Source of the DNA: Kaistia terrae
GTDB taxonomy: Bacteria > Pseudomonadota > Alphaproteobacteria > Rhizobiales > Kaistiaceae
Direction of reading: 5' to 3'
NCBI RefSeq assembly: GCF_026344005.1
Contig: NZ_JAPKNH010000009.1
Coordinates: 99,089 to 163,088, forward strand
Length of the DNA stretch: 64,000 nucleotides
The position numbers were made by a program, and so were the translations under genes. A model generated the notes under the pieces. It was not told where the DNA came from and ran no database searches. It was given only the letters and a program-made list of their open reading frames with translations. This document shows, in pieces, positions 7,093-26,257 of this stretch (its first letter is position 1; every line of letters begins with the position of its first letter).

Positions 7093-7096
7093 AAGC

Positions 7097-7132: not shown

Positions 7133-7140
7133 TGCAGAAC

Positions 7141-7157
7141 TGGTGCCCAGAAGAGGA
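7141..7157 (+). repeat. attL: left direct repeat of the genomic island
   Basis: TGGTGCCCAGAAGAGGA is identical to bases 26173-26189, the 3'-terminal 17 nt (CCA included, complement) of tRNA-Leu. The match ends after 17 bases on both sides. This is the expected footprint of a tyrosine integrase that recombines at the 3' end of a tRNA gene. It marks the left end of the island. Confidence 0.85.
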
Positions 7158-7479: not shown

Positions 7480-8403
7480 ATGGCAGGCTACGACGTTATT
7501 GGGGACATCCACGGCCATGCGGATGCTCTGCAACGGCTTCTCGGGGCTATGGGCTACGAGCGACGCGATGGCGTCTATCGACATCCCACGCGCACGGTGG
7601 TGTTCGCGGGAGACTTCATTGACCGGGGCCCGCAGCAACGAGAGGTGTTATCCGTCGCGCGGCCGATGGTGGAGATGGGCTCCGCTCAAGCCGTCATGGG
7701 CAATCACGAGTTCAATGCAATTGCTTGGGCGACCGCTGACGGGAAGGGCAGTCACCTTCGGCCCAGAACTCCCAAGAACAATCACCAGCATAGCGTCTTT
7801 CTGGAGCAGGTCGGGGCCGGCTCAAGCGCCCACGCTGAGGCGGTCGCATGGTTTATGACTTTGCCGCTGTGGCTGGACCTGAACGGGCTGCGCGTGGTCC
7901 ACGCTTGCTGGCATCAAGCCTCACGGAAGGCTCTGGCCGGCTGCGTGGATGCGCAGGCTCGCTTGACGGAGCAGGGTTTGCATGAAGTCCACGACCGGGG
8001 GAGTGCCGCTTATCAAGCGGCAGAAGTTCTTCTGAAAGGGCCCGAAGCCCGGCTACCAGAAGGCCATACCTTCCACGATAAGGATGGGCACCTTCGATAC
8101 GACGTGCGGCTGCGCTGGTGGGATCCATCCGCAATTACATTCCGGTCCGCTGCTTTGGGGATGGAAGGGCGCGAGGCGGACCTGCCCATGAGTCCTGTCC
8201 CCACCGCCTTCCACTATGCAGACGAGACGCCCGTCTTGTTCGGTCATTACTGGATGTCGGGCGAGCCGCGTATTCTCAGCCCGCGAGCGTCTTGTTTGGA
8301 TTTCAGCGTGGCCCGAGATGGGGTCCTTGCCGCTTACCGCTGGTCTGGTGAGGCCGAGTTACAGTCCGAAAATTTGATGTGGGTACAGCCTGAAGCTCCA
8401 TGA
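7480..8403 (+). CDS. metallophosphoesterase (serine/threonine phosphatase-like)
   Basis: Calcineurin-like metallophosphatase of 307 residues. All core metal-binding motifs are present: GDIHGH (residues 8-13), GDFIDRG (44-50) and GNHEFN (74-79). This arrangement matches bacterial PrpE, ApaH and PPP-type phosphatases, which hydrolyse phosphoproteins or Ap4A. The ATG at 7480 has AGGGG before it and begins directly with the first beta strand; an upstream GTG at 7423 adds 19 atypical residues. It is the first gene inside the island and stands alone. Family is sure; substrate is not known. Confidence 0.87.
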   Translation: MAGYDVIGDIHGHADALQRLLGAMGYERRDGVYRHPTRTVVFAGDFIDRGPQQREVLSVARPMVEMGSAQAVMGNHEFNAIAWATADGKGSHLRPRTPKNNHQHSVFLEQVGAGSSAHAEAVAWFMTLPLWLDLNGLRVVHACWHQASRKALAGCVDAQARLTEQGLHEVHDRGSAAYQAAEVLLKGPEARLPEGHTFHDKDGHLRYDVRLRWWDPSAITFRSAALGMEGREADLPMSPVPTAFHYADETPVLFGHYWMSGEPRILSPRASCLDFSVARDGVLAAYRWSGEAELQSENLMWVQPEAP

Positions 8404-8741: not shown

Positions 8742-8802
8742 AGGCGCCGCCTAGACTCCTGCCATTGCATGAGCACCATCGTGCCCGGTAAGGAACCCCA
8801 AG

Positions 8803-9435
8803 ATGCCAAAGCGCGTCGCCCTCTACCTCCGCGTCTCGACCACCGGCCAGACGGTCGAGAACCAGCGGCACGAGCTTGAGGCGGTCGCACAACGCCATGG
8901 CTGGCAGGTGGTCGCCACCTTCGAGGATGCCGGCATCTCGGGTGCCAAGGGACGGGACAAGCGCCCAGGCCTGGATGCCATGTTGAAGGCGGTCGCCCGC
9001 CGCGAGATCGACCTCATAGCCGCCTGGAGCGTGGACCGCCTCGGTCGCTCGCTGACCGACCTCCTCACCTTCCTGGGCGAGCTTCACGCCAAGGGCGTCG
9101 ACCTCTACCTGCACCAGCAGGGCCTCGACACGTCTACGCCGGCCGGCAAGGCGATGTTCCAGATGATGGGCGTGTTCGCCGAGTTCGAGCGCGAGATGAT
9201 CCGCGAGCGCGTTAACGCTGGTCTCTCCCGCGCCAAGGCCAACGGCACAAAACTCGGACGTCCCGCCAGAGGCACCGAGAAGGACAAGAAGAAGGCGGCC
9301 GAGTGGTCCCGAGTTCATGCCGCCGTGCTGGAGGCGCGCGCGGTGGGCAAGGGCAAGGTGAAGATTGCCAAGGAGCTGGGCATCGGCGTCAGCACGGTCG
9401 ACAGGATCGTCAGGGAGGCAGCACCGGCCGGGTGA
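8803..9435 (+). CDS. serine recombinase (resolvase/invertase family)
   Basis: 210-residue small serine recombinase. The catalytic Ser is in YLRVST (Ser12). Active-site and dimer segments follow in the normal order: DAGISGAKGRDKRPGLDAML, AWSVDRLGRSLTDLL, QMMGVFAEFEREMIRERV (helix E) and GLSRAKANGTKLGRP. A C-terminal helix-turn-helix reads VKIAKELGIGVSTVDRIV. The length is full for a Tn3-type resolvase. No transposase or invertible gene is near, so it may act on island multimers or be left from an older element. Confidence 0.93.
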   Translation: MPKRVALYLRVSTTGQTVENQRHELEAVAQRHGWQVVATFEDAGISGAKGRDKRPGLDAMLKAVARREIDLIAAWSVDRLGRSLTDLLTFLGELHAKGVDLYLHQQGLDTSTPAGKAMFQMMGVFAEFEREMIRERVNAGLSRAKANGTKLGRPARGTEKDKKKAAEWSRVHAAVLEARAVGKGKVKIAKELGIGVSTVDRIVREAAPAG

Positions 9436-10100
9436 TGCCGTTTCACCGGCGGATCTAGATCCGTCCGTATCCACCGGAGTTGCCACAGGCCGATGCGAGC
9501 TAGCCGCCAGCGGCACATCCTCCGAACGTTGCCGCCGGGTTTTCGACGGCCCGTATTGACCGCAGCACATACATCGCAGGTAGGCCGCCCTCCGCTAGGG
9601 GAGGTCGCACAGGACCCCTGATCCATCGCAGGCAACGCTTTCGGCATATCGAGCCTCGTCAAGCCGGACAGATGTCGACGAGTGATCGCGTCTCGCGGAT
9701 ATACCGACCGTCCCTCCCCATGGAATTCTAGCGGGCGTCGCCCTGCCGATCCGTTCGCGCTCCCGTGTTCGGCCATAGGCACTGTTTGTTGGCGCGCCGG
9801 ACTCGGACCGAATGCGAGGCAGTTGCAAAGAGATAAGCTGCAACTTCTTGGTTAGGGACCACCCTAGGAATTCTCACAGGCGGACAGCTTCCGCTACGTG
9901 ATGGATTTCTGCGGCTCCGCGCTTCCGTGAGCTGTCACCTCCCGCTCCATCTGCCCCACGGGCGTTGCGCCCTCATCGACTCCCGCTGACTGCACGACCC
10001 GTGACTTGCATTGAGCGGATCTCGCTCGGCCGCCGTCAAGCGCGCCAACACGCCCTTCGGAACCTCGATCTGGCTGCCGCTTCCGGGCTGCAAGGCCGAT
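9436..10100. other. 730-bp intergenic region with palindrome and first CCACCCTAGG copy
   Basis: No convincing gene on either strand. A perfect 14-bp palindrome CGGATCTAGATCCG lies at 9450-9463, just after the recombinase stop. A CCACCCTAGG motif lies at 9859-9868; the same motif recurs at 10107 and 11051. Both may be binding sites. Confidence 0.45.
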
Positions 10101-10166: not shown

Positions 10167-11153
10167 ATGAACGCCTTCACGCAGATCTCCACCTCCAATG
10201 CCATTGCCCTGCCTGTCGTCATCGTCCGCGATGGTGGCGTCTTCGCCAACAGCCGTGACGTGGCAGACTACTTCGACAAGCGGCATGCTGACGTCATTCG
10301 CTCTATTGACGATCTGCTCATGGCGGCTCCTGCAGCAGAACGGGAATTTGCGTTTTGCCCGTATTCTGCAGTTTCCGGCGGCCGCGAGTACCGCTCCTTC
10401 GACCTGACACGGGACGGCTTCACGCTCTTTGCGATGGGCTTCACGGGCCCGAGGGCGCTGCACTTCAAGCTCGCCTATATCGACGCATTCAATCAGATGG
10501 AGGCGCTGCTCCGGTCCGAGCGGTCGGCAGTGCCTGCTATCCCGACCACGCTGACCGAGGCCCTGCGTCTCGCTGCCGACGAGGCGGAGAAGCGCGAACG
10601 GACCGAGGCCGAACTGCAACTGGCCAATGCGGAGCTGGAACACATGGCGCCGAAGGCTGACGCCTTCGATAGCCTGATGTCGGCGGAAGGTACGTTCAGC
10701 TCGACGGAGGTCGCCAATCACCTCGGCTTCCGCTCGGCTCAAGCCCTGCACACTCATCTCCATGCCGAGGGCGTGCTGCGCAAGGGTCGGCGCGGCCAGT
10801 GGCTGCTCCGAGCCGCCTTTGCTCGAAGCGGCTACTTCAAGCTGATCACCCAGCGGTACGGCAACTCGGTCCGGACGCACACCGCCTGGACACCGAGCGG
10901 CCTTGCTGGGCGAACGACTGCTTCAATCAGAGCCCCGCTCTGGAGTTGGCCTGGCTGTAACGAAACAGACGGGAGGGGAGCACCGCGCTCTCCTCCCAAA
11001 GCACGGGAACCTCCCGTGTACTCACGCAAACCACAACCTGAAATTACCGCCCACCCTAGGAGCACACAGGCCCGGTCAAAACGGTCTGCAGCGCTCTACC
11101 GCCGGGTCGATGCCCGCTCCACGTTTCGAGCGCACGCGCGCAACCACCCGTAG
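10167..11153 (+). CDS. Rha-family phage regulatory protein with KilAC-like domain
   Basis: Phage-type DNA-binding regulator, 328 residues as an open frame. Residues about 15-105 match the Rha domain (VFANSRDVADYFDKRHADVIRSIDDLL, then YRSFDLTRDGFTLFAMGFTG). Residues about 160-245 look like an antirepressor KilAC domain (FSSTEVANHLGFRSAQALHTHL, GYFKLITQRYGNSVRTHTAWTPSGL). After about residue 246 the sequence turns Arg/Pro-rich and unlike the family, while the next frame reads LLGERLLQ, a normal-looking end for that domain. A hairpin (10971-10997) and a CCACCCTAGG repeat lie inside the tail. I think a frameshift near 10900 has extended the frame, and the true protein was about 255 residues. Confidence 0.8.
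   Translation: MNAFTQISTSNAIALPVVIVRDGGVFANSRDVADYFDKRHADVIRSIDDLLMAAPAAEREFAFCPYSAVSGGREYRSFDLTRDGFTLFAMGFTGPRALHFKLAYIDAFNQMEALLRSERSAVPAIPTTLTEALRLAADEAEKRERTEAELQLANAELEHMAPKADAFDSLMSAEGTFSSTEVANHLGFRSAQALHTHLHAEGVLRKGRRGQWLLRAAFARSGYFKLITQRYGNSVRTHTAWTPSGLAGRTTASIRAPLWSWPGCNETDGRGAPRSPPKAREPPVYSRKPQPEITAHPRSTQARSKRSAALYRRVDARSTFRAHARNHP
10971..10997. terminator. stem-loop within the 3' tail of the Rha frame
   Basis: GGGAGGGGAGC (10971-10981) pairs with GCTCTCCTCCC (10987-10997) around a 5-nt loop, with one G-U pair. No T-run follows, so it may be a weak terminator or mRNA-end structure. Its position supports the idea that Rha coding originally ended near here. Confidence 0.35.
11045..11060 (+). 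repeat. CCACCCTAGG motif, copy 3
   Basis: ATTACCGCCCACCCTAGG, the best match to copy 2. It lies about 160 bp before the unknown acidic gene and inside the doubtful tail of the Rha frame. Confidence 0.45.
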
Positions 11154-11216: not shown

Positions 11217-11711
11217 ATGACCAACCCAGAAATGAATGCCGGACTGTCCTTCACCGGCCAGGAGATGAGAGCCGGTGGCCTCCACGCCTCCCTTGAAGAA
11301 CTGAACGGGCGCGCGCCGCTGAGCGAACACGAGGAGATCAGCATCGAATATGATCAGGAAGAAGACGTGTTCCGGATGTATCTCACGGCGGTGACGGCCG
11401 ACAGTGGTCTGCGCACGTGGGCACGTTCGGTGGCATTCCCGGCAAAGCTCTTGCTGGAACTCGCCGAGCGTCGCTGCCTCAACGCAGAAGAGCGCGCTTT
11501 CTATGCGCGGGAAGCGGCGGACGCGGCCGAGGACGATGTTGAAGAGGAGGACATCTATGCCGCCGAGGAGCCGATGACGGACGCTACCCGGCGTTGGCAC
11601 CTGCTTCGCCTTCACACCCTCCTGGGCGACGCCCGCAAGCAGCTCGTGGAGGTCGGCATGGAAGCTGCCGCCCTCGGCCTCACCGATGAGCTGGTCTCCT
11701 TCAACCCTTAG
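11217..11711 (+). CDS. hypothetical acidic protein
   Basis: 164 residues, rich in Glu and Asp, with a very acidic stretch at about 101-120 (AAEDDVEEEDIYAAEE). I see no signal peptide, membrane segment or known motif. The ATG at 11217 follows a purine-rich AACGAGATC. It sits between the phage-like regulator and the polymerase-like gene and ends with a strong terminator, so it is likely a small replication or regulation accessory of the island. Unrecognised. Confidence 0.65.
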   Translation: MTNPEMNAGLSFTGQEMRAGGLHASLEELNGRAPLSEHEEISIEYDQEEDVFRMYLTAVTADSGLRTWARSVAFPAKLLLELAERRCLNAEERAFYAREAADAAEDDVEEEDIYAAEEPMTDATRRWHLLRLHTLLGDARKQLVEVGMEAAALGLTDELVSFNP

Positions 11712-11803: not shown

Positions 11804-13108
11804 ATGCTTCCTCAGAAACTCGAACGCCACCGCTGGTTTGACGACTGGCGAGGCGCAGAGGGCCCAGCGCTGTGCAAGCTCGTGGCCGATATCACCACGG
11901 CCCTCGACGGCCGCGAACAGTCAGCAGGAACCCGCACCCGGAAATTCAGGGAAATCGATCAGCGTCACCATCTGTCCGCCGTGGAGACGACCGTGGCGAA
12001 CCTAGCCCACGCGGTCCTTGTGCCACCGGAGACGGGACGGCTGGCCATCCTCACCGGCAACGGAAGAAGTGGCCAGACCCGCTATGACAATCCCGCCCTC
12101 GGCAAGCCCTTCCGGACGCTCCTGCACGGCCTCGATGATCTCGGGCTGGCGGCATGGCGGAACTCCCCGCAACGCCGTGAGGCGTCGTCTCTGGTGCCTA
12201 CAGAGTCCTTTGCAAAGGCCGTGAGGACTGCCGGCATCACGCTGGCTGACTTCGGTCGTCAGGCGGGTGAGGAGGTCGTCATCGCCTCCCGCAAGACCCG
12301 TCATCGCTTCAGTGATGGACTGGTAGTTTCAAGGGAGTTGGTCGACTACACCGACACGGCGGAGACCATCGCCATACGCAACACCGTGCGCGGAGTGAAC
12401 ACCTTCCTCGGGGAGGCTGACATTGCATTCATCTATGATGGTCACGGCCCTGTCGATCCTCATAGCCGCGCCATGGCCCGTCACTTCACGTTGACGGACG
12501 ATGAAGGGGCCCCTCGGTTCGACCGCAACGGGCGGCTCTTCGGCGGCTTCTGGCAGAACCTCAGGAAGGACCGGCGGCAGGGAATACGGATCGAGGGAGA
12601 GGCCGTCGCCAATCTCGACTTCTCTTCCATGTTCCCACGGCTGGCCTACTCTCATGCTGGCGTCTCTGCGCCGGATGGAGACCTTTATGCCATCCCCGGC
12701 TTGGAGGGACACCGCAGGGCTGTGAAGATGGCCATGAACTGCCTGCTCATGGATGACTTCCACCGCTCTGCTTGGCCGAAGGAACTCGTAACGAGCGCCG
12801 ACGACAGCGACGCAACGGCCATCTTGCCGCCCGGCTGGACCGTCAAGCGCACCAAGGATGCCATCCTCCGGAAGCATCCCGCGCTCCGCCCGTGCTTTGG
12901 TGCAGGTATCGGCCTGATGCTCATGCACACCGAGAGCCAGATCCTCATTCATGTGCTGGAGGAGATGAAGGCGAAGAAGCTGGTTGCTCTCGGCCTCCAT
13001 GATGGTCTGCTCCTTCCCCGTTCAAGGGCTGAGGAGGGGAGGATGATGATGGAGGTGGCATCTCGGGAGGTCACGTGCACGAGCATTCCCGTCACCTTGA
13101 AGGCCTGA
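11804..13108 (+). CDS. polymerase-like protein (palm-domain motifs), unassigned
   Basis: 434 residues with no confident family name. Three blocks in the C-terminal half resemble nucleic-acid polymerase motifs in the right order: motif A-like NLDFSSMFPRL (Asp272), motif B-like RRAVKMAMNCLL (Arg304 or 305, Lys308, Asn312), and motif C-like LGLHDGLLLP (His399-Asp400), preceded by a long helix SQILIHVLEEMKAKKLVA. The HD of motif C and the helix before it recall family A DNA polymerases, where the sequence is usually HDE. The N-terminal 250 residues have no recognisable exonuclease or primase motif. The length is much shorter than PolI. Its neighbour is a phage regulator, so a role in island replication or repair is likely. 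Inference from motifs only. Confidence 0.6.
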   Translation: MLPQKLERHRWFDDWRGAEGPALCKLVADITTALDGREQSAGTRTRKFREIDQRHHLSAVETTVANLAHAVLVPPETGRLAILTGNGRSGQTRYDNPALGKPFRTLLHGLDDLGLAAWRNSPQRREASSLVPTESFAKAVRTAGITLADFGRQAGEEVVIASRKTRHRFSDGLVVSRELVDYTDTAETIAIRNTVRGVNTFLGEADIAFIYDGHGPVDPHSRAMARHFTLTDDEGAPRFDRNGRLFGGFWQNLRKDRRQGIRIEGEAVANLDFSSMFPRLAYSHAGVSAPDGDLYAIPGLEGHRRAVKMAMNCLLMDDFHRSAWPKELVTSADDSDATAILPPGWTVKRTKDAILRKHPALRPCFGAGIGLMLMHTESQILIHVLEEMKAKKLVALGLHDGLLLPRSRAEEGRMMMEVASREVTCTSIPVTLKA

Positions 13109-13242: not shown

Positions 13243-15342
13243 TCAATGCTTGGAGATCAGATCTTCGAGAAACTCCGAGCCAGGGGCCACACCCGACACG
13301 AACAATCGGTCCCTGGCTCGCGTGGCTGCCACGTAAAGCAACTGTCGTTCTGTCGCTATGACTTCGTCTAGCTCGAACTCGTCGGCTACGTCTTCCACAC
13401 GAGCCGCCAGCGGAAGGGCGCCCTCGTCACAAGCAATGATGAGGACTGCCCGGAACTCCAATCCCTTTGCCAGATGCATGATGCCTACGAGAGCCAGAGC
13501 GTCGTCGCCGGGCTTCTGTGCAGCCACGGTTCGAAATGGCAGGCTTGCGGCATCCGCTATGGCCCGAGCACGGGGCAGCAACTCTGGAGACCGAACGAAG
13601 ATAGCTATCTGCTGCGGGGCGATGCCATCAGCCAGTGCTGCCTTGAGGAAGGCTGCGGCAGCTGCGCGCTCGGCCTGCGCGTCTTCGGCAATCACGACAG
13701 TTGGGTCCAGTCCGTCGAAAACCGATATTGCACCCCGCCGGTCGTCCTCTAGCCCGTCGACATCGCGGATCATCTGCGGCAGCAGTCGGTCGGCCATCAC
13801 CCGAATCTGTTGCGATGTCCGATAGTTGACCTTCAACGTGAAGGATCGCCCCCGTACATCGATGCCAAGCTCTTTCCAGGAGAATGGCTGCTGGAAGATG
13901 CGCTGACCGATATCGCCGGCAAAGAATAGGGCATCGGGCTTGTCTGGAGTTATCGCCGCAAGGAAACGAAGTTCTGGAACGCCGAGATCCTGCGCCTCGT
14001 CGACAATAACATGGGTGAAGGGTTTGTCCGAGCGTGCGGCGTAGGTTGTCGTGACAGCCTCGAACAGCGATGCCAGCGTGAACAGCGCGCGTTGTTTCAA
14101 CGCCTCCCGTACTCGCGAGAATACCTGCCACAGCACTTCGCGCTGTTTCTGACCTAGTCGGTTCTTGCGGCCCATGCGGGGCACTTCGGCATAACCAGCG
14201 GCGTCGCCGATATGCCAGGCATCAACGACATTCTCCCACTCCGAAGCCAAAAAGCGGGAGGTAAAGCCTTGAACACCAGCATCCTGTCGGGCCTTCTCGA
14301 TCAACTCACGAACTTGGTCGCGGTCGGCGATATGAGCTTTGCGGCCTGTGGTCAGCGCATAGAGCTCCTCGCAGATCCGACGGAACGAAGCCACGGTCAC
14401 ACGGCTTTCGAGGCTCTGGTGATCGACGGAAAGAACCGCCAGCTTTCGTCGAAGCGCCCCAGCCAGCGGGTCGGAAAAAGTCGTCAGCAGAATGTGGGCG
14501 TTTGGATCCGTCCGGAGAATGCGCATAACGCGGTGGAGAGCAACCACCGTCTTTCCAGTCCCTGCTGATCCGGCAATGCGGGCCGGTCCCGAGTAATCGC
14601 GCTCGACCACCCCGCGCTGGAGAGGATGAAGGAAGACGGCCCATTTTTCGAACGGCGCATCGAGGGCTGCCTGCAACTCGTCGACCCCCTCCAGAACGCG
14701 GAAGCGACGCATTGAGTCTGGATGCGCCATCGGGTTGGCTACGGGCGCTGCCGCTCTTTGCAGGATCCCGGTCGCCGCATACTCCAGCAGTGCTTCCGAT
14801 GCTTCCTGAGGCAGATGACCGGCGAGTACGAAGAACGATTCTTCATTGGCTCTGGCCACGTCGGAGAGCCAATCCTGCGGCACGCCAACGGAAAGCAGAT
14901 CACCCGAAGTCAGCTTCTCGAAGAGTGGAGGCGCAGGTGGAGCCACCCTCGTTTTGACAATCTCGAAGGGCAGGCTCTCTTGGGAGGCTTGCGCGGGCGG
15001 CGCGACCTCGATGCGTTCGCGCACTTCGACGATCTGGACGGCACCCGTCGTCGGATGCGTCTCGATCCGCCGTCGCTCGGCCCATTTATAAGCTTCGTCG
15101 TGGTGGCCCACGTAGGCCAGCATCAAGCTGTCGCCCGACTTGTGCACGATGAGGCGGAGGTCGCGGCTGACGCGTACCGACCAGAAGTTCGGGTCCTTCG
15201 ACTTGTCAATGCGATGGAACTGAAGGCTCGGCTGGTCAGGATTGGTCTGCAGATCGAACGCCGTTAGCTTCGCCTGCTTCTGCTCGTCATTGGCAAGGCG
15301 GGCGAGGGAGGAAGTGAAGGTATCGGCGAGGATGGTGGGCAT
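13243..15342 (-). CDS. RelE/ParE-like domain fused to UvrD-type helicase
   Basis: 699 residues. The first 95 residues have the RelE/ParE toxin fold pattern (QFHRIDKSKDPNFWSVRVSR, DLRLIVHKSGDSLMLAYVGHHDEAYKWAERR). A linker follows, then a superfamily 1 helicase: Walker A GSAGTGKT (258-265), VDEAQD (motif II), KVNYRTSQQIR (motif IV), HLAKGLEFRAVLIIACDEGALPL (motif V) and LLYVAATRARDRLFVSG (motif VI). It overlaps the small HTH gene before it by one base (TGATG), the layout of an antitoxin-toxin pair. Likely a defence or addiction enzyme using DNA unwinding; the role of the RelE-like part is unknown. Confidence 0.85.
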   Translation of the reverse strand: MPTILADTFTSSLARLANDEQKQAKLTAFDLQTNPDQPSLQFHRIDKSKDPNFWSVRVSRDLRLIVHKSGDSLMLAYVGHHDEAYKWAERRRIETHPTTGAVQIVEVRERIEVAPPAQASQESLPFEIVKTRVAPPAPPLFEKLTSGDLLSVGVPQDWLSDVARANEESFFVLAGHLPQEASEALLEYAATGILQRAAAPVANPMAHPDSMRRFRVLEGVDELQAALDAPFEKWAVFLHPLQRGVVERDYSGPARIAGSAGTGKTVVALHRVMRILRTDPNAHILLTTFSDPLAGALRRKLAVLSVDHQSLESRVTVASFRRICEELYALTTGRKAHIADRDQVRELIEKARQDAGVQGFTSRFLASEWENVVDAWHIGDAAGYAEVPRMGRKNRLGQKQREVLWQVFSRVREALKQRALFTLASLFEAVTTTYAARSDKPFTHVIVDEAQDLGVPELRFLAAITPDKPDALFFAGDIGQRIFQQPFSWKELGIDVRGRSFTLKVNYRTSQQIRVMADRLLPQMIRDVDGLEDDRRGAISVFDGLDPTVVIAEDAQAERAAAAAFLKAALADGIAPQQIAIFVRSPELLPRARAIADAASLPFRTVAAQKPGDDALALVGIMHLAKGLEFRAVLIIACDEGALPLAARVEDVADEFELDEVIATERQLLYVAATRARDRLFVSGVAPGSEFLEDLISKH

Positions 15343-15575
15343 CAGGCCTCAGCCTTCTTGGTCTCGACATACCGAGCCAGATTCATGCCCTTTCTGATTT
15401 CGGTCGCATAGTTGACAGGAATGCCGGCGCGCGTGGCTAGTTCTTTCAGAGGCATGCCATCAAGCTGTGTCGCGAACGTTATCCCGCACAGATGCACGGA
15501 CAGGGCCTGTTCCCGATTGGGGATGCCTTGGTGATACATGCGGGCCAGCTCTGTCGCAGCTTCATCAATCGTCAT
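15342..15575 (-). CDS. small HTH protein, putative antitoxin-like partner
   Basis: 77 residues from the ATG at 15575, which has a strong GGGAGAGGTG ribosome site; an upstream TTG at 15644 would add 23 residues but has no such site. The C-terminal half MPLKELATRAGIPVNYATEIRKGMNLARYV looks like a helix-turn-helix. Gene order (small HTH first, RelE-fused protein second, overlapping by one base) resembles type II toxin-antitoxin operons. A palindrome GAACATTGTTC lies 24 bp upstream. Confidence 0.7.
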   Translation of the reverse strand: MTIDEAATELARMYHQGIPNREQALSVHLCGITFATQLDGMPLKELATRAGIPVNYATEIRKGMNLARYVETKKAEA

Positions 15576-15598
15576 TTTCACCTCTCCCGAATAGTTGC

Positions 15599-15609
15599 GA
15601 ACATTGTTC
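15599..15609. promoter_or_regulatory. palindromic operator candidate GAACATTGTTC
   Basis: Perfect 11-bp dyad just upstream of the small HTH gene, in the 65-bp gap after the HNH gene. Its place suits autoregulation by the HTH protein. Not tested; one copy only seen here. Confidence 0.4.
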
Positions 15610-15640
15610 AAAACGGTTCGTTGCAGAGACTGGTCTAAGC

Positions 15641-16819
15641 TCAATCGGGGAAGCCGAACGCTGCCCGGTGTGTCGCTAGGAACGTCTGCATCCTAGCTGT
15701 CAGCTTCCGGGATAAGTGCATGCCCCGCTGCAGCAGATCGGCGTGCCCGTCCATTTGCCGTGCTGCTAGAAGCAGACCTTCATTGTCGAAGGAGATCAGC
15801 CCGGCATCGAAGAGAGCATCGAGTGTAGCAACCAGCGGCAATCCATTGTCGGGATCGAGCCGCTCCTCATTTGTTGCGTCCCGCCACGGCAACACATGAG
15901 AGGCTCGGATCACGGTGGCCAGCGAGCATCCAGTCACGGCACACTTTCCATCCCAGCGAGCCAGGACCTCTGTTCGGAACTTTCCTTGACCCAATCGTGC
16001 GAGGACCAATTGCTCCCGCTGGGTTACGGAAATAGAGTTGTTCGCCTCAACGGCCGCAATGTCGGAGAAGATAGAACTCTCTGACGGCCTCAGTGCCTCA
16101 AGGAGCGACTGCTTTGGGCGCACTGCAACGATAAAGCCGTCCCTGTTGTAGACGAAATCAGCGACATTCTGCCCGTCTGGCCCGACGAATTTCAGACATC
16201 CACCGTCCATCGAACGACGCGCCCCGCTGCTATCAAGGAACCTATAAGGCACTGGGACATCTCCGATTTCGCTAAAAATACGAACGAGATGGCGCTTGAA
16301 ATAGTCTGTGCGGGGACCGGTACCAGCGCCGTCGCTGCCAAGCGTTTCTCTTTTGAATAAGTCGTGCGAAGACTTGGAGAACGGAGCTGAAGCCCGAGAC
16401 CCATCCGGTTTAAAATACTCAGGAATGTCCACTCGAAGTGGTGCGAAGTCTGGCTCGCCCTCAAGGAAATCCCTCAAGGACATTCCGGAGTGGCGCTCGA
16501 TCCAGCTTTGAGGACCACTCACGTTACCGTCTCTGATTACGCCAGCGGCCCGACTAGGACTGCTAAACGTGTGGTCGTCCGCGAAACGAAGGAGGTTAGC
16601 CTGGGTCGTGTCTAGCAGGATTCCTTCTCGTATCAGGGAGTCGCGCGCCTCTCGATCCCGTTTATCGCTGGCTGAACTATCTTTCATGGCGGTAGAGCCC
16701 GCGAGCACCGCAAATCTGCCGTCGGGCAACACCCGTCCACTCGCCAGCGCGTCACGAGATCGAAACCGGAAGGTGAGATCGGTTACTGCCGGGTCAATTG
16801 GCTTCGTTGCCTTGGCCAT
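15641..16819 (-). CDS. DUF4357-HNH restriction endonuclease-like protein
   Basis: 392 residues. The N-terminal 100 residues match DUF4357, a small domain often attached to restriction and GIY-YIG nucleases (ASGRVLPDGRFAVLAGSTAM, TFSSPSRAAGVIRDGNVSG). The C-terminal 120 residues are an HNH nuclease: CAVTGC, RASHVLPWRDA, then DNGLPLVATLDALFDAGLISF. The start is ATG 16819, five bases after the methyltransferase stop; a TTG at 16828 is an alternative. It is coupled to the restriction-modification genes upstream and probably cuts DNA in the same defence setting. Confidence 0.82.
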   Translation of the reverse strand: MAKATKPIDPAVTDLTFRFRSRDALASGRVLPDGRFAVLAGSTAMKDSSASDKRDREARDSLIREGILLDTTQANLLRFADDHTFSSPSRAAGVIRDGNVSGPQSWIERHSGMSLRDFLEGEPDFAPLRVDIPEYFKPDGSRASAPFSKSSHDLFKRETLGSDGAGTGPRTDYFKRHLVRIFSEIGDVPVPYRFLDSSGARRSMDGGCLKFVGPDGQNVADFVYNRDGFIVAVRPKQSLLEALRPSESSIFSDIAAVEANNSISVTQREQLVLARLGQGKFRTEVLARWDGKCAVTGCSLATVIRASHVLPWRDATNEERLDPDNGLPLVATLDALFDAGLISFDNEGLLLAARQMDGHADLLQRGMHLSRKLTARMQTFLATHRAAFGFPD

Positions 16820-16824
16820 TGTAC

Positions 16825-18309
16825 TCAAACCCCGAACACTTTCAGCACTTCGTCGCCGAAGTGGTTGATCACCTTGACCGCGATTCGTCCCGTCTTCGGC
16901 CTCGGGAACGGGCGGGAGGTATCGGAGTAGAGCGTTGCCCAGGCTTCCTCGTCGATCTCGGCCTTCAGCGCTGTCTTCAGGGACTTGTAGGGGTCGTTGG
17001 CACCGAGGAAGTAGGCGTGGCGGACGAAGAAGCTCTCTTCGTTATAGTCGGTGTCGATGAACCAGGCGGCGATGCCCTTGACGTCGTCGGAGCGGATTTC
17101 GCCTGTCGAGGGGTCGAAGATGTCGACACCGTTGACCTTCACCTGCAACTCGCCTTCCGCCGTCTCGATCAGGTCGACGTCCGGTTCGCCGAATACGACG
17201 AAAAGGTTGCCCTTGCCGGTGTTCTTCAGGTCCTCGGCCATGTGCAGGTCGGGGTTCATGCGTGCTTTCAAAATTGCCAAGGGTCCCAGTCTGTTCAAGT
17301 CGGTCGCCTGGGCCTCGAAGTTGAAGGCGCAGGCAATCAGCGCGTCGAAACGGGCATCGGAGGCCTCGCGGGCGGCAGCCGTGATCTGGCTGCGCGTCAG
17401 CGTGCCGAATTCCGGGCCGATCAGGATGCCGGCGCGCTTCTCGCGGCCGTCGCCATCCGTGTAGCGCCCCTCGGCGGCGAGGAAGTTGCCCGGCCAGGGC
17501 TCGACGGAGTTGAAGCGGATCGTGTCGCGCTTCTCCTGCTGGTGCACGCCGGTGGTGCGCAGATTTTCGAGAACCATCTGGCCGAAGTCGATCTCCGGCA
17601 TGTTCTTCGGCGCAGGCTGCATGGTGCCTGTTGCGGCTGCGAGCTCCTGACCAAGTGTGTCGTCGCGCGCGGTGACGACGCGGTGCGGCGAAAGGCTCTC
17701 GACCGTGAAGGGACCGGCGACGCGCACGCGGCCCTTGTCCTCATAAGGGCGGTCGTAGAGCATCTCGACATCGGCGGCGCGGGCGATGGAGGCGTCGATC
17801 TCTTTCTGCCGCGCGATGCGGGCATCCCACCAGGCAGCGTGAAGCCGGATCGCTTCCTCGTCTGTCCACGGATCAAACGGTTCGTCGGGCAGGTCGTCCA
17901 GCGTCAGAACGCGGTCTAGGGTACGGTTGATGATGCCAAGCGACTTCTGTCGTGTTTGTGGCAAGGCAGATGTATTTCGGGCTCTGGGCAGCTCTTCGGC
18001 AGCCGCTTTCGGCCATGGCGTTCGGGGGAGGCGCGGGATTTCCCACTCCTGCCATTGCGCGTTCATGCGCTCATTCAAGGCCGCGCGCAGCGGTTCCAGC
18101 GTCTGCTGCCACGTCTCCCAGATCACGTCGATCTCGGCATTGTTGGCGATGTCTTTCAACATGATGTGCGGCGCGCGGTCGTAGACAAAGCCTTGGCGTA
18201 TATCGCCGGCGGTTGGCGTCTGCGGCTGGATCTTTCCTGAGACCTTCTGCTCCCGCGCGCGCCCGTCGAGACTATCGGCGAGCAGATAATAGGGATACCG
18301 AGCAGCCAT
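16825..18309 (-). CDS. Mod methyltransferase, C-terminal fragment
   Basis: 494-residue open frame beginning MAARYPYYLLADS; its reading frame continues upstream into RRWITIDTSRVALALARTRL, the part just after the AdoMet motif in the intact family. It carries the specificity and Res-contact region. It has no evident start signal of its own. Confidence 0.75.
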   Translation of the reverse strand: MAARYPYYLLADSLDGRAREQKVSGKIQPQTPTAGDIRQGFVYDRAPHIMLKDIANNAEIDVIWETWQQTLEPLRAALNERMNAQWQEWEIPRLPRTPWPKAAAEELPRARNTSALPQTRQKSLGIINRTLDRVLTLDDLPDEPFDPWTDEEAIRLHAAWWDARIARQKEIDASIARAADVEMLYDRPYEDKGRVRVAGPFTVESLSPHRVVTARDDTLGQELAAATGTMQPAPKNMPEIDFGQMVLENLRTTGVHQQEKRDTIRFNSVEPWPGNFLAAEGRYTDGDGREKRAGILIGPEFGTLTRSQITAAAREASDARFDALIACAFNFEAQATDLNRLGPLAILKARMNPDLHMAEDLKNTGKGNLFVVFGEPDVDLIETAEGELQVKVNGVDIFDPSTGEIRSDDVKGIAAWFIDTDYNEESFFVRHAYFLGANDPYKSLKTALKAEIDEEAWATLYSDTSRPFPRPKTGRIAVKVINHFGDEVLKVFGV

Positions 18310-18349: not shown

Positions 18350-19834
18350 TCAATGGTTATCCAGCGCCGACCCCATTGCTCGGCCGGCCGTTGCTGTTGT
18401 GCCGGAACCGCAGGTTGGGTCGATCACGAGGTCACCCGGATCGGTGGTCATCAGAATGCAGCGTTGCAGGACTGCCTGGCTGGTCTGAACAACATAGGTC
18501 TTGTCAGAGCTTCCAGCGGTATCAGTCCAAATATTCGTAACAGGATAGGCGGCGAAGTCATCTACGTAGCGGACGTAACGAAGCGTCTTTCCGGCTTTGC
18601 GTATCCTGTCGGCCTTGAGCAGTTTCCCGAAACCGCGTTCGCCCGTTTTCCAGTATCCACCGCTAGGGCCAAACGCTTTGCCCTGATAAACGACCGAGAA
18701 AGATCCTGGCGGTCGGTTCGAGGTCAGGCTTGTCAATTGGAATGCTCGGCCGTCCTCGTTGGTTTGATCATACCGTGCGCCACTTCCGTGGCCGACTCCG
18801 AGTTCCTTTGTGTAATATAGACGCCTGAATTTCGCCCTGATGACGTCACGAGCATACCAGAGTACATAGTCCTGTACTGCCGGCAATAGATCGCTCGTTT
18901 GCCCACCTGTCTTTTGGAAGGTGATCTCATTGACAAAATTCTCCTGTCCGAACACCTCATCCATCAGCGCCCTGACCCGATGGACATTCTCGTCGCCGAT
19001 CTGGACGAAGATCGAGCCGCTTTCGGTCAGCAGTTCTCGGGCGACCATCAAGCGGTCGCGCAGATAGGTGAGGTAGGAGTGAATGCCGTCCTTCCAGGTA
19101 TCGCGAAAGGCCTTCACCTGTTCCGGTTCGCGCGAAACGTCTTCCTTCTTTCCGTCCTTTACGTCGCGCGATTGTGTCGAGACCTGCCAGTTCGAATTGA
19201 ACTTGATGCCGTAGGGCGGGTCGAAATAGATGCATTGCACCTTGCCGCGCATCGCCTCGCGCTCCGCAAGGCTCGCCATCACCTGCAGGCTGTCGCCGAG
19301 GATGAAGCGGTTCGTCCAGTGCTGCGAATGCTGGTAGAACTCGGCCCGTGCCTCCGGGTCGGCCAGACCGTTGAAATCGGCAAACAGGTCCGGCGCGTCG
19401 CTGTCCGCCTCGCGGCGCGCATCCGAGCGGCGCTTCAGATCGTCGATGATCGCCTTCGGGTGCACCTTCTCCTGCACATAGATCGGTGGCACATTGACCA
19501 CGAGGTCGGACCAGTCCTGTTGATCCTTGCCGCGCCAGACCAACTGCGCATCGCCAATCTCGATCTCGCCCGTCTCCGCCAGTTGGCGCATCTGGGCCTT
19601 GGTGATCTTGATCTTCACCCCATTCCAGACGATCTGCGGATCGAGATCGCCATCGCGGTCGCGCACCTGGCCATGCGCCAGCGGCCGGGGCCGCGCGAGC
19701 CGCATCGAGCGCTCGTCCTCGCCCAGGATCTCCGCCTGCTGCTCGTAGAGCGAGGCCATCTCGGCAGTCGGATTGTTGAGACGCCGCGCCGCCTCATGCG
19801 TGAGGGCATCGATCTCGCGAGGGGATTTGGCCAT
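18350..19834 (-). CDS. Mod methyltransferase, N-terminal fragment
   Basis: 494 residues from ATG 19834 (overlapping the upstream stop as TAATG) to a premature stop at 18350. Holds both catalytic motifs (DPPY and CGSGTT) and a helical N-terminal region starting MAKSPREIDALTHEAARRL. Longer readings that start upstream run through the previous gene and are not supported. Confidence 0.8.
   Translation of the reverse strand: MAKSPREIDALTHEAARRLNNPTAEMASLYEQQAEILGEDERSMRLARPRPLAHGQVRDRDGDLDPQIVWNGVKIKITKAQMRQLAETGEIEIGDAQLVWRGKDQQDWSDLVVNVPPIYVQEKVHPKAIIDDLKRRSDARREADSDAPDLFADFNGLADPEARAEFYQHSQHWTNRFILGDSLQVMASLAEREAMRGKVQCIYFDPPYGIKFNSNWQVSTQSRDVKDGKKEDVSREPEQVKAFRDTWKDGIHSYLTYLRDRLMVARELLTESGSIFVQIGDENVHRVRALMDEVFGQENFVNEITFQKTGGQTSDLLPAVQDYVLWYARDVIRAKFRRLYYTKELGVGHGSGARYDQTNEDGRAFQLTSLTSNRPPGSFSVVYQGKAFGPSGGYWKTGERGFGKLLKADRIRKAGKTLRYVRYVDDFAAYPVTNIWTDTAGSSDKTYVVQTSQAVLQRCILMTTDPGDLVIDPTCGSGTTATAGRAMGSALDNH
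18381..18390 (-). other. frameshift site in mod (GGCCGGCC)
   Basis: Site where one extra base separates the two mod frames. The 8-bp palindrome GGCCGGCC is a plausible place for slippage or for a base-calling error. There is no long simple repeat, so classic repeat-driven phase variation is not indicated. Confidence 0.7.
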
Positions 19835-20421
19835 TATATCAGTTTCACCTTGGCGAGCAGTTTCGTGAATTCCGCCTCGGCGTTGGCTGCGCGCTGCAGC
19901 GCTGCCTCGATGGGTGCCATCGCCGTTTCGAGTTGTTGATCCGCCAGCGCAGCCGCTACTGTTCGCGCATCCAGGCTGCAGACCGTATAGAAATTGCCCG
20001 CGTCGCTCAGGTGGAAGCCGTGCGTAACCATGATTTGCGCATGCTCCCTTGCCAGCGGCTTCCATTTCCGGGCGCCGGTCTTCTGACCGAACCATAAGCA
20101 AAGCTGGCCACCAGCAACGCCAACATAGCGGGACAATGCATGGTACGGCTCCTGCCCAACGCCTTCTCCGGTGTCGTCAGGGCCGTTGTCGGGATAGAAC
20201 CACGCTTCACGCTCTTTGTCGGCGACCCAATTTTTTGGCGCGACCCAAGGATCGTCCTCGTCGGAGGATCCTCGCCAGCCGCGACCCATGGCCCAATTTT
20301 CGAAGGTTTCATAAATCTGTTTCCAGATCTGGTCTCCCAAGGCATCGACGCGCTTGGCGGCTTGGTCGAGGTCCAGCAGGTTCTCTACGATCAGCTTGTC
20401 GAGCTCGGATGTATCGGTCAT
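19834..20421 (-). CDS. unknown protein coupled to mod
   Basis: 195 residues from ATG 20421; stop and mod start overlap (TAATG). The N-terminus (ELDKLIVENLLDLDQAAKRVDALGDQIWKQIYETFENWA) is helical; the middle has aromatic, Trp-rich strands (DPWVAPKNWVADKEREAWFY, GGQLCLWFGQKTGARKWKPLA); the C-terminus is a possible coiled coil. I do not recognise the family. Position between the PD-(D/E)XK protein and Mod suggests an accessory subunit of the restriction system. Confidence 0.7.
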   Translation of the reverse strand: MTDTSELDKLIVENLLDLDQAAKRVDALGDQIWKQIYETFENWAMGRGWRGSSDEDDPWVAPKNWVADKEREAWFYPDNGPDDTGEGVGQEPYHALSRYVGVAGGQLCLWFGQKTGARKWKPLAREHAQIMVTHGFHLSDAGNFYTVCSLDARTVAAALADQQLETAMAPIEAALQRAANAEAEFTKLLAKVKLI

Positions 20422-20429
20422 TTGCCGCC

Positions 20430-21233
20430 TCAATGAAAACGAGAAACATGGGCAGCGAACAGCAGCGCCAGCCTTGTTGAGAGCGCGTCCGGCTCCCGAT
20501 GACGTGCCACGGACTGGATCGACCGCGCGACATCCTTCCACCGAAGTGGGATACATTTTGAAGGAGCGGCAGGTGGTGTTTCAGAAAGATACATAACAGC
20601 GTGGTGCTGCTTACCCAGGCTGTCCGCCTTGATCTTTGCCAGCTTGCCATACTGCTCGATCTGACCCGATTTGGTTTCGCCGGCATTGACCTTGACCTCC
20701 AGGAAGATGACAAATTCCGCGCCTGTGATCTCGATGTCGATGCGATGCTCGCCATTGCCGATAGGGTAGTTTTCGCGCACTACGCGTTGGATGCCCCGCA
20801 TGGGAAATCCTGCCTTGGTCGTGCCGGAAATACGATCCCAGAGCTCAACGAGATAGGCGTCACCAGCGCCATGGGAGCCATGTGGATCGAGCAACCACGT
20901 CAACACTCTGGAATTGCGCACCTCATTGTGCCCCAGGCCTGCCACCGACCAGATATCGACGGCATCGCCCTGTTGACGCGTACGCCCCAGCATCGGCGCA
21001 AGATTGCCAAGAGCTGTTGTGAGACGGGCGGGAGTGATGGCTTCGACGTGGTGCGCGATGGGAGCGTGTCGCGCCGCTTCCAAGCGTGGTCTTATCTGGG
21101 CCAAAGCCTGCCGCAAACTCTCGGCTTTGGAGGGCGAGCTACCTCGGGACGTCCGCCATGCATGCAGAAAGGTCCTGAGCCGATCCAACTGGAACGCATC
21201 GGCAACTGGTAGGCCTAGGCTGAGGTCAAGCAC
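20430..21233 (-). CDS. PD-(D/E)XK nuclease-family protein
   Basis: 267 residues. The segment HNEVRNSRVLTWLLDPHGSHGAGDAYL followed by HRIDIEITGAEFVIFLEVKV gives the PD-(D/E)XK pattern (Asp..Glu-Val-Lys), close to the PDDEXK_4 type. The GTG at 21233 overlaps the Res stop by 8 bp and has AGAGGG upstream; a TTG at 21311 would overlap Res by 86 bp and is less likely. It is a second nuclease beside Res, which has its own PD-(D/E)XK site. Confidence 0.77.
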   Translation of the reverse strand: MLDLSLGLPVADAFQLDRLRTFLHAWRTSRGSSPSKAESLRQALAQIRPRLEAARHAPIAHHVEAITPARLTTALGNLAPMLGRTRQQGDAVDIWSVAGLGHNEVRNSRVLTWLLDPHGSHGAGDAYLVELWDRISGTTKAGFPMRGIQRVVRENYPIGNGEHRIDIEITGAEFVIFLEVKVNAGETKSGQIEQYGKLAKIKADSLGKQHHAVMYLSETPPAAPSKCIPLRWKDVARSIQSVARHREPDALSTRLALLFAAHVSRFH

Positions 21234-24200
21234 TGACCAACCCTCTGGCAAGCCGTGCCACGACTTTCTGGTACTCTTCTTCAATTGCGAAGGCGTCCCG
21301 GAACTCGGCAAACGCCCATCGGCCGAAGGTTTTTAGATTGTTGACGCCCGGCACCCAGAGCGTTTCCATCGTTTGGGCCTTGAGCTGCGCGTCGAGTCCC
21401 CGGAAGCCCTTGATTTCGACTACGAGGTTCAGTGGATCGTCCGGGCCGTTACCGTCGTCGAGTTGGACGATGAAGTCCGGCAGGTAGCGGCGCGACACCG
21501 AGCCTGCGAGATAGGGCACCTCGAAGCCAAGCGCCTGGTTCTTCACGTAGGCAAGCGTCGCCGGATGCGCCTCAACCACACGAGCGAACTCGGCCTCCCA
21601 GTCGCTGTCGCATACCACGTAGTTGATGTGCGATTTGTCCGGCGCGGTCGTCCAGAGGTTGGCCTTGCTCGTGTTGAACACGACGAAGTTTGTCGTTCCG
21701 CGAGGATTGTAGGGGTCGAGAATCGCCTTGACGATGGGTGCGCCATCCGCGCTCGCCTCACGCACGATGCCGGCGTAGATCAACTGGGCGGCCTGCTCGG
21801 CGATCTCTGCGTAGGTGAGCATGCCGAGCTTCGTGCCGCCTGTGGTCACGACGTGGTCGCGGAGCCAGCGGCGCGTGATGGGCTGAATCTGGTTGTAAAG
21901 ATGGTATGGCGGATCCTGGTCGCCCTCGCGGAAATAGAGTTCCACGAGCCGCTTCGTCAGATGGAAGCCGACTGTGTTCGGGCGCATCTCGTCCAGCGCA
22001 TCCGGCGAGATATCGTGGCCTTCGCCGACGAGGCCCTCAAGGCGCGTCACGCAAGGGCCAACCAGTTCGGGCGTCACGCGCAGAGTCGAATCAGCGTTGA
22101 AGGTGGCCGCAATTCGGTCCGGCGGCAGTTCTGTGCGGTAGCCTGCGACACGCGGGAAGCGGATGGCGAGGCGCTCACGTTCCTTAACCGCCTGCACCCT
22201 GGTGATCGGCTTCGGTGGCGTTCGAACGACCTTCTGTGGCTCTGTAGCGAAGTCGAACGGAATGCCGAGGATGTCGGCGTATTCCGTGTTGAACAGACCC
22301 TTGTCGTTGAGTTCGTAGGATTGGCGGCGCAGGCCACGGCCGATCACCTGCTCGCAGAGAAGCTGTGTGCCGAAGGCGCGAACGCCGAGGATGTGCGTGA
22401 CCGTGTTGGCATCCCAACCTTCCGTCAGCATCGAGACGGACACCACGCAGCGGATCTGCTCGCCGAGCCGGCCCTTCTGGCCGACGGTATTCATGACTTC
22501 GCGCAGCAACTCGCTATCGGAGATGTTGCCGGCCGCGGCTCCCTCGCGCTCCTGCTTCTCGAGCCGGAACAGATCGATCTCGGTGGCGGCCATCTGCCGA
22601 AAGCTCGGATCCAGGGCGTCGCCTGATTCGATCTGCTCGGAATCGATGAGCAGCGTGTTCATACGAGGGAGGGGATTGCCGTACTCGTCGAAGTTTCGAA
22701 ACTTCTCAAGGTGCCCACGATGAATCATCTGCAACGAGCCTTCTCGCTCACGCTGCCAGCCAGAGATCCATTCGAACACGAGTTTTGAGGTGGCGGTGTT
22801 GTTGCAGACGACGATGAAGACGGGTGGCACGCTGATGCGCGCGCGCTCCCACTCCTCGAACTCGAGCTTGTAGTGGCTGTAGAGGGAGAGCAGTGCAGTC
22901 TGCAGCTCTGGTGGCAGGGAGAGCGGGTCGAGGTCGCCGGACTTCGCGGCTCCCTTCTTCGGCATCTGTTTGCCGATATGGTCCCACAGGTTCCTATAGA
23001 CCGGCGCTTCGTTGTTCACCGAATTGTCGGCAACGGGTACGCGCGGCAGCTTGACGATGCCGCATTCGATGGCGTCGACCAGCGAAAAATCGGAAATCAC
23101 CCAGGGAAACAGAGTCCCCTCGTCATAGCCGGATCCGCGCAGAAAGAACGGCGTTGCGGAGAGGTCATATAGAGCACGGAGGCCGACCTTGCGCTTGAGG
23201 GCTTCCAAACCGGAGATCCAGAGACGGGCGGCATCATTGTTCTTCTTGGCCTCTTCCTTCTCTTCGCCCTTGACCTCGGCTTCCTCGTCGGTTCCGGGCC
23301 GCTCGCGATAGCAGTGGTGCGCTTCGTCATTGATGACGACGACATTCTTCAACGTCAGGAGCTCGCCGCAGGCACGCTGCAGCATTTCTCCTTCAGTCTC
23401 CTGCTTTTCGAGGGGCGCGCCAGTGCGGCCCTGCATCAGGCGCTCACCGACAGGATTGAGCTCATGGGCCTTCCGGCGCTGGAAGGCGTGATAATTGGTG
23501 ATGACGATCTTGGCCTTGCCGAGATCAGCCATCATGTCTGCAGGGACGAGTTCGCGCGTTCTGTAGTAACTGTCCGGATCGGATGGCAACAGGACTCGGA
23601 GACGGTCGCGAATGGTGATGCCGGGCGCGACCAGGAGGAAGCCTTTTGAGAACAGCGAGGAGTTCGGTTGCCTGGCGGCGTTGATCGCCTGCCAAGCGAT
23701 GAGCATCGCCATCACCGTGGTCTTGCCGGCACCCGTGGCTAGCTTGAGCGCCAGCCGGAAGAGCTCAGGATTGGCATCCTGGTTCGCCTTTTGCAGATGC
23801 CCGAATAGCTGGGCATAGCGAGGGCGCCCGCGCGCAACCTCGGTGAGCCAGATCACCGTTTCTGCTGCCTCAACCTGGCAGAAGAACGGACGGGCCCCCG
23901 AGAACGCATCGGACCGCCAGTGCTGCAGCAATCGCTGGGTGGTCGGAGTTACGCCCCAATCATTTGGATTTGGGAGAGATCGCCAGGACTCGAGGTGTCG
24001 CCTGATCTCATTGACCAGCGCATTGGGCGTGTACCGGCCGGAATCGTTGCCAGCGCTGTCGAGATCGAGCGTCTCTTGTTTGGAGGCCTTGGCACGTCGT
24101 CCACGAGGCACAGGCACGAGGTATTTGGATGGGCGGCGGCCCTGAATGGCCGGATGATCCAACGGCTGGCCATCTTCGCCCAGCGAGTGATGCCGCGTCG

Positions 24201-24255
24201 GCACAAGGTACGGCGAGTTGAGGATCGGCTCCCCGTAAAATGGCTTAGTCATCAT
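21226..24255 (-). CDS. type III-like restriction endonuclease subunit Res (DEAD-box helicase-nuclease)
   Basis: 1009 residues. Superfamily 2 helicase core: Walker A LATGAGKTTVMAML, DEAH-type VVINDEAHHCYRE, motif III DLSATPFFLRGSG, motif VI QVIGRGLRRQSYE. The C-terminal nuclease reads YLPDFIVQLDD then NLVVEIKGFRG, a PD-(D/E)XK site. This is the architecture of type III Res and of the related family I recall annotated as BPTD_3080-like restriction endonucleases (name from memory). First gene of the leftward train; it needs Mod for target recognition in classic type III systems. Confidence 0.9.
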   Translation of the reverse strand: MMTKPFYGEPILNSPYLVPTRHHSLGEDGQPLDHPAIQGRRPSKYLVPVPRGRRAKASKQETLDLDSAGNDSGRYTPNALVNEIRRHLESWRSLPNPNDWGVTPTTQRLLQHWRSDAFSGARPFFCQVEAAETVIWLTEVARGRPRYAQLFGHLQKANQDANPELFRLALKLATGAGKTTVMAMLIAWQAINAARQPNSSLFSKGFLLVAPGITIRDRLRVLLPSDPDSYYRTRELVPADMMADLGKAKIVITNYHAFQRRKAHELNPVGERLMQGRTGAPLEKQETEGEMLQRACGELLTLKNVVVINDEAHHCYRERPGTDEEAEVKGEEKEEAKKNNDAARLWISGLEALKRKVGLRALYDLSATPFFLRGSGYDEGTLFPWVISDFSLVDAIECGIVKLPRVPVADNSVNNEAPVYRNLWDHIGKQMPKKGAAKSGDLDPLSLPPELQTALLSLYSHYKLEFEEWERARISVPPVFIVVCNNTATSKLVFEWISGWQREREGSLQMIHRGHLEKFRNFDEYGNPLPRMNTLLIDSEQIESGDALDPSFRQMAATEIDLFRLEKQEREGAAAGNISDSELLREVMNTVGQKGRLGEQIRCVVSVSMLTEGWDANTVTHILGVRAFGTQLLCEQVIGRGLRRQSYELNDKGLFNTEYADILGIPFDFATEPQKVVRTPPKPITRVQAVKERERLAIRFPRVAGYRTELPPDRIAATFNADSTLRVTPELVGPCVTRLEGLVGEGHDISPDALDEMRPNTVGFHLTKRLVELYFREGDQDPPYHLYNQIQPITRRWLRDHVVTTGGTKLGMLTYAEIAEQAAQLIYAGIVREASADGAPIVKAILDPYNPRGTTNFVVFNTSKANLWTTAPDKSHINYVVCDSDWEAEFARVVEAHPATLAYVKNQALGFEVPYLAGSVSRRYLPDFIVQLDDGNGPDDPLNLVVEIKGFRGLDAQLKAQTMETLWVPGVNNLKTFGRWAFAEFRDAFAIEEEYQKVVARLARGLVSA

Positions 24256-26172: not shown

Positions 26173-26189
26173 TGGTGCCCAGAAGAGGA
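26173..26189 (-). repeat. attR: right direct repeat inside tRNA-Leu
   Basis: TGGTGCCCAGAAGAGGA, identical to 7141-7157. It equals the last 17 nt of the tRNA, CCA included, so the island restores an intact tRNA on integration. Confidence 0.85.
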
Positions 26190-26257
26190 CTCGAACCTCC
26201 ACGACTTTCGTCACACGGACCTGAACCGTGCGCGTCTACCAATTCCGCCATCTGGGC
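26173..26257 (-). tRNA. tRNA-Leu (anticodon CAG)
   Basis: 85 nt with encoded CCA. Acceptor GCCCAGA pairs with TCTGGGC; the D arm has GGTAGACGCG; the anticodon stem CACGG/CCGTG holds loop TTCAGGT, anticodon CAG; there is a class II long variable arm; the T arm contains GGTTCGAGTCC. It reads CUG codons. It is the integration target of the island. Confidence 0.96.

Follow-up and report, generated by a model that had tools for sequence, protein, structure and literature searches.

A TV-Pol polymerase in a tRNA-integrated island of Kaistia terrae, a candidate for island DNA synthesis

What does a small polymerase-like protein do in a bacterial island otherwise rich in restriction-type genes? The question is raised by a 64,000-nt stretch of Kaistia terrae DNA (RefSeq assembly GCF_026344005.1, contig NZ_JAPKNH010000009.1, positions 99,089 to 163,088 of the forward strand), called the window here and the source of all coordinates below. 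An original prediction, made from the letters alone, drew attention to an open reading frame (ORF) at 11804..13108 on the plus strand, and its place, ATG start and length of 434 amino acids (aa) were as described. It was read as a family-A-like protein that might be a small replicative or repair polymerase, or a palm-fold enzyme with another role, and for which no described function was known. We accept this protein as a member of the known TV-Pol family, and we put at roughly 60% the probability that this compact family-A-type polymerase starts and copies the DNA of its island after integrase-mediated excision.

The protein carries the motifs LDFSSMFPRL, RRAVKMAMNCLL and LHDGLLLP in the order first reported, and the earlier numbering of the motif A Asp, D272 (12617..12619), and the motif C Asp, D400 (13001..13003), was correct; the fingers motif R304-xxx-K308 lies at 12713..12727, all on the plus strand. 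A protein search scored 7997 candidates and returned 306 proteins at E ≤ 0.001, its own included, which places this motif set far beyond chance. In an alignment of the window polymerase with 49 relatives picked from the best 120 of these matches, 31 columns are invariant, and D272, R304, K308, H399 and D400 do not vary. A second set, which partly shares proteins with the first, comprised 73 polymerases of at least 380 aa, the window's included, out of 82 called in the genome loci described below; a quick tree was built from it. D272, R304, K308, H399, R226, R244, W250, E377 and S378 are each present in 73/73 of these proteins, and D293 and D400 in 72/73. The residue after HD is G in 32, A in 32, S in five and C in four, and the PolA-type Glu, already remarked to be missing from the window protein, is absent from all of them. 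Searches of Pfam, NCBIfam and, by sequence, PDB gave no meaningful match for the window polymerase, and Pfam DNA_pol_A matched neither it nor any of the 50 aligned sequences. The claim that no known N-terminal domain is present thus stands for Pfam and NCBIfam but not for PHROG, where family phrog_4756 (function unknown) matches with E 1e-21. The window gene is conserved and probably encodes an active polymerase.

A structure model of the window polymerase contains strands at 224-230 and 242-247, with R244 on the second, and a helix of 21 residues (370-390) ahead of motif C, where a long helix had been noted. Fold searches matched the protein to enzymes of family A and of T7 type. The significant Foldseek matches are DNA polymerases, and in the VIA alignment single-subunit RNA polymerases and DNA polymerases tie. 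A polymerase fold, with two-metal chemistry on D272 and D400, is predicted. The palm-fold, family-A-like reading is backed by these fold searches and by the PolA register of motifs A, B and C: when the 73 polymerases were aligned by profile with 20 PolA sequences, the score was low (P 0.016, probability 2.8%), but D272 fell on the motif A Asp, R244 on the Arg of GRL, and the fingers Asp, RxxxK and the motif C HD on their counterparts, all unprompted. The window protein shares its fold and motif order with the Klenow fragment of DNA polymerase I and with T7 RNA polymerase. In contrast to DNA polymerase I, it is only 434 aa long, an exonuclease domain was not found, and the Glu after HD and the Glu at motif A +5 are both missing. 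Residue 277 stands in the register of the latter Glu, which is invariant in the 20 PolA sequences and which we take to be the sugar gate of Klenow. Among the 73 polymerases this position holds F in 27, A in 14, G in 12, N in seven and other residues in the rest, with Glu in 0/73.

TV-Pol was described in 2008 by Iyer, Abhiman and Aravind, who proposed primase and polymerase activity for it in mobile elements (PMC2579912). Its members, of 400-600 aa, have a compact superfamily-A core with two Asp, a beta-hairpin Arg, a fingers Asp and RxxxK, a thumb of two antiparallel helices and no nuclease domain; they are often embedded near restriction-modification operons and linked to a gamma-delta resolvase, a lambda-type integrase and a Bro-N/KilA-C gene (PMC2579912). 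The expected palm Asp (D272, D400), the hairpin Arg before motif A (R244) and the fingers feature (D293, R304, K308) are all present at the frequencies given above. Model helices 21-41 and 50-72 are a candidate thumb pair, and no nuclease domain was matched by Pfam anywhere in the 434 aa, in line with TV-Pol. The size class and nearby restriction-type genes are also shared with the 2008 family, as is the grouping of TV-Pol with a resolvase and a KilA-C gene, together with an integrase. Methylobacterium nodulans, which is on the TV-Pol species list (PMC2579912), has a homologue among the matches listed for the window polymerase. As both features and neighbours match TV-Pol, we accept membership, an assignment to a known family and not to a new enzyme class. 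The statement that no described function was known does not hold for the family. A hypothetical protein family that matches PHROG 4756 but nothing in Pfam is thereby placed in a named polymerase family.

The polymerase gene lies in a 19-kb island integrated at a tRNA-Leu gene. The left attachment site (7141..7157) is an exact 17-bp copy of the 3′ end of tRNA-Leu (CAG) (26173..26257, minus strand; ARAGORN, Rfam RF00005), and the right site is that 3′ end itself (26173-26189). In three genomes of the same genus (G032, G041 and G042) the flanks are joined by exactly one 17-bp core; the repeat and this single-core empty site define an island of 19,032 bp. The survey covered 13 same-genus genomes besides the window's own, nine of which were uninformative, the left flank having no match. 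At this tRNA-Leu site G040 (contig C3, ~182500-197600) has ~15.1 kb between the flanks and thus seems to carry a different insert there; TV-Pol was not detected on that contig. A tyrosine integrase (24404..26095, minus strand; PF00589, E 1.6e-6) adjoins the tRNA gene in the window, separated from the polymerase by ~11 kb of cargo. On the plus strand, as is the polymerase, are a serine resolvase (8803..9435; PF00239, E 7e-49), a Rha/KilA-C antirepressor-type protein (10167..11153; PF09669, PF03374) and, directly upstream of the polymerase, a 164-aa ORF (11217..11711). This ORF had no match in Pfam, PHROG or PADLOC; the protein search gave one relative besides itself, and a weaker one is present in locus L001. 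The island had been called phage-like, which holds for the phage-type antirepressor but not for the unit as a whole: it is tRNA-integrated, and no virion gene or module was recognised in it.

Similar anatomy recurs in part of the related loci. The TV-Pol family is accessory, present in 11 of the 41 genomes searched and in 7 of the 14 of the genus (own included in both counts), with three copies in the window's own genome. One pattern scan found 88 relatives, of which 80 were kept; with the window and the two other own-genome copies they make 83 loci, whose genes were called with our own codon-score script, not a standard caller. Neighbour counts use 82 loci, as L029 has no called polymerase gene. 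A tRNA is present in 53/83 loci; in 30 of them the end of the tRNA is repeated over 15-104 nt (threshold, 14 nt) beyond the polymerase, compared with at most 13 nt on the opposite strand as control; at L057 an entire second tRNA gene falls within the repeat. Island length ranges from 2.7 to 19.0 kb in the 30 cases, among them L021 (2.7 kb, polymerase only), which may be a remnant. The islands carry an integrase in 29/30 cases, a resolvase in 26/30 and the polymerase in 30/30 by construction, since the loci were found through it. In the C35 island of the window's own genome these two genes, polymerase and integrase, are adjacent and converge across a gap of 363 bp, and at L002, L005 and L035 the gap is 11-43 bp.

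The cargo of these islands is variable, with type I restriction sets, AbiEii/OLD-like ATPases, TIR and AbiU2 proteins and a molybdopterin oxidoreductase. In the window, the minus-strand neighbours of the polymerase are of restriction type plus a GajB-like protein, a setting in which the polymerase could itself be a defence component, for example one that copies or damages invading DNA. We think this very unlikely, since PADLOC gave no match for the polymerase at E ≤ 0.01, integrase and resolvase are retained across islands whose cargo changes, and what the window and C35 islands share at the DNA level is mainly the polymerase (79.5%) and the resolvase (84.8%, over 8716-9492), not the cargo. 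The neighbourhoods inspected gave no support to the repair polymerase that had been offered as an alternative.

The window unit differs from the TV-Pol elements of 2008, of which those linked to a resolvase were termed replicative transposons, with ~200-nt direct repeats in one case (PMC2579912). The window unit instead sits at a tRNA gene, is bounded by a short attachment repeat and has an empty-site counterpart in same-genus genomes; tRNA is not mentioned in the main text of PMC2579912. No long direct repeats that could be resolvase targets were found in the window, including none of 200 nt. Next to the C35 resolvase lies a near-repeat of 25 nt, but this did not generalise, and exact repeats beside resolvases (122 flanks; longest direct 18 nt, inverted 23 nt) did not exceed the opposite-strand control. 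The idea of such repeats as resolvase targets was dropped. Iyer et al. also stressed the link to a D5-like helicase, fused or adjacent to TV-Pol frequently but not universally (PMC2579912), whereas none was seen in the window island, the recurrent cargo families of its relatives or 10 larger cargo proteins scanned singly. Compared with the open-access literature searched, the tRNA-island anatomy, the missing motif A Glu and a lead to a T7-like partner (below) would be additions to the description of TV-Pol.

Three other systems invite comparison. CcPol, a family-A polymerase of SCCmec-like elements, was assigned to TV-Pol; it extends primers alone but primes only with MP, an OB-fold protein (PMC7581432, PMC10061031), and it strongly prefers deoxyribonucleotides (dNTPs) over ribonucleotides (NTPs) (PMC7581432). 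The PolA-SSB primases, all those analysed being from Bacillota, have an OB-fold partner, with a single exception among those tabulated, and a helicase of the COG3378 or DUF927 type (PMC10061031). With both systems the window island shares an island-borne family-A polymerase, a serine recombinase and, as in most of them, restriction-type cargo. In contrast to the PolA-SSB primases, no COG3378 or DUF927 helicase was seen in the 14 scanned ORFs of the window island, and the recurrent partner of the window's relatives is helical, whereas theirs is an OB-fold protein. Pipolins of E. coli are integrated at a tRNA-Leu gene between direct repeats and combine tyrosine recombinases and a DNA polymerase of their own with variable cargo that includes restriction components (PMC7385651). 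That polymerase (piPolB) is of family B, while the window polymerase matches family A and T7-type folds. The window island may thus be viewed as a pipolin-like arrangement with a family-A enzyme and without the helicase of PolA-SSB primases, and TV-Pol polymerases travelling in site-specific tRNA islands are a family-A counterpart of pipolins.

In the model that we favour, the tyrosine integrase would recombine the 17-bp sites to excise the island as a circle. TV-Pol would then make a primer de novo or extend one and copy the circle, perhaps borrowing a host helicase; the serine resolvase would separate dimers that arise from copying or reintegration; the KilA-C protein may control the timing of excision and copying; and the restriction-type genes would be cargo that repays the cost of carriage. 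Should the predicted priming hold, these islands would join piPolB and CcPol-MP as a further way in which mobile elements start DNA synthesis de novo.

Several points weigh against island copying by TV-Pol. The polymerase activity is a prediction, and excision and the circle are inferred. The PolA profile match is weak; the comparison with PolA from the narrower 50-sequence alignment gave nothing, and that with T7 RNA polymerase gave no match (P 0.8). As a control, the same profile test also failed to pair PolA with T7 RNA polymerase (P 0.59). CcPol needs an OB-fold partner to prime, and the 164-aa neighbour in the window has too few relatives to be modelled as a possible counterpart. No replicative helicase is among the 24 Pfam families matched by at least two of 142 cargo proteins (25 of 98 families listed), or among the 10 larger cargo proteins scanned singly. 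Within the window, Pfam scans of 14 island ORFs gave only UvrD-like and ResIII helicases, both on the strand opposite the polymerase; the gene calls include, beyond these 14, an ORF of 112 aa that spans the left attachment site. Rheinheimera phage Barba9A encodes a homologue with an annotated DNA primase and an annotated DNA polymerase ~3 kb away, which means that a TV-Pol protein need not be the main replicase. Finally, one in-frame TGA was flagged in each of the polymerase copies of G031 and G046. These flagged codons, with the partial matches in G050 and G068, would also fit a decaying, inactive remnant retained by linkage, an idea that we regard as highly improbable given that the window copy retains its signature residues and that the alignment has 31 invariant columns.

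A different role, possible but doubtful, is that of a T7-RNA-polymerase-like primase or transcriptase, which would make RNA or mixed strands for priming or island-specific transcription and not bulk DNA. The tie in the VIA alignment, the invariable lack of the motif A +5 Glu and a motif C of HDG, HDA, HDS or HDC in place of HDE are consistent with such an enzyme. So is a gene resembling RNase HI that lies no more than 10 kb from the polymerase in 8/83 loci (L004, L008, L018, L019, L020, L025, L038 and L057; Pfam checked singly for L018), with Pfam RNase_H matched by 4/142 cargo proteins. However, these loci are a minority, the significant Foldseek matches are DNA polymerases, and the assayed relative CcPol works much better with dNTPs (PMC7581432).

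The recurrent partner mentioned above, c3, is a helical zinc-motif protein that adjoins the polymerase in 41/82 loci, always co-directionally, and in 18 of the 30 islands; its gene overlaps the polymerase start in 10 loci. Its model is all-helical. One could picture TV-Pol as half of a split single-subunit polymerase, with c3 as counterpart of the T7 N-terminal domain and with de novo starts from ribonucleotides in helicase-free tRNA islands. We consider this unlikely. A profile test of c3 against the T7 RNA polymerase N-terminal domain found no match (P 0.28), a failure that says little, since PolA and T7 RNA polymerase also went unpaired. If c3 is such a counterpart, the core of the polymerase would represent a form, still in existence, that is intermediate between DNA polymerase I and the RNA polymerases of T7 type, and the window copy would have swapped c3 for the KilA-C and 164-aa proteins. 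Family-A DNA polymerases and T7-type RNA polymerases have been proposed to share a primase-like ancestor (Iyer et al., PMC2579912), a question that the missing motif A Glu and a T7-like partner make testable.

Relatives of the polymerase also turn up in plasmid and phage records. We tried to trace a phage origin through close relatives, but tblastn with the window protein gave no phage record; it gave three plasmid records. A scan of viral contigs gave two loci. With the distant relative from L047 as query, 133 phage records were obtained, none covering 80% of the query, and most signature residues are kept in the two inspected. The TV-Pol-like gene of Barba9A (L138, 7380-8687), annotated as hypothetical, is an extra polymerase-like gene in that phage.

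The remaining window cargo begins with a calcineurin-like phosphoesterase on the plus strand (7480..8403; PF00149, E 2e-10). All other cargo genes are on the minus strand: a UvrD-like helicase (13243..15342; PF00580, PF13361; the GajB-like match in PADLOC), an HTH_73 small protein (15342..15644; PF24718), a DUF4357 and HNH_2 nuclease (15641..16828; PF13391, PF14267), two adjacent ORFs (16825-18309 and 18350-19834) that match different parts of one type III methyltransferase model (PDLC03632), a 195-aa ORF without a match in Pfam or PADLOC (19834..20421), a PD-(D/E)XK nuclease (20430..21311; PF14281) and a type III restriction-like helicase (21226..24255; PF04851, E 1e-9). The methyltransferase may be a broken gene or a natural split. 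An N-terminal stretch of the UvrD-like helicase weakly resembles the ParE toxin (PF24732, below the family cut-off).

Among the relatives, a recurrent protein of 798-906 aa is encoded downstream of the polymerase in L001, L004, L019 and L020; the L020 copy, the one scanned, had no Pfam match. On contig C4 of the window's own genome (L143, ~4742-7850), a resolvase with 94% protein identity to the window's (189 aa), a c3 gene and an integrase-like gene lie together, and no polymerase was detected there; this is perhaps a fourth island, decayed or polymerase-free. In the window itself, positions 5700-7082, beyond the 70 bp that adjoin the island on its left, are unmatched in all 13 of the other genomes from the genus and may be a second variable region.
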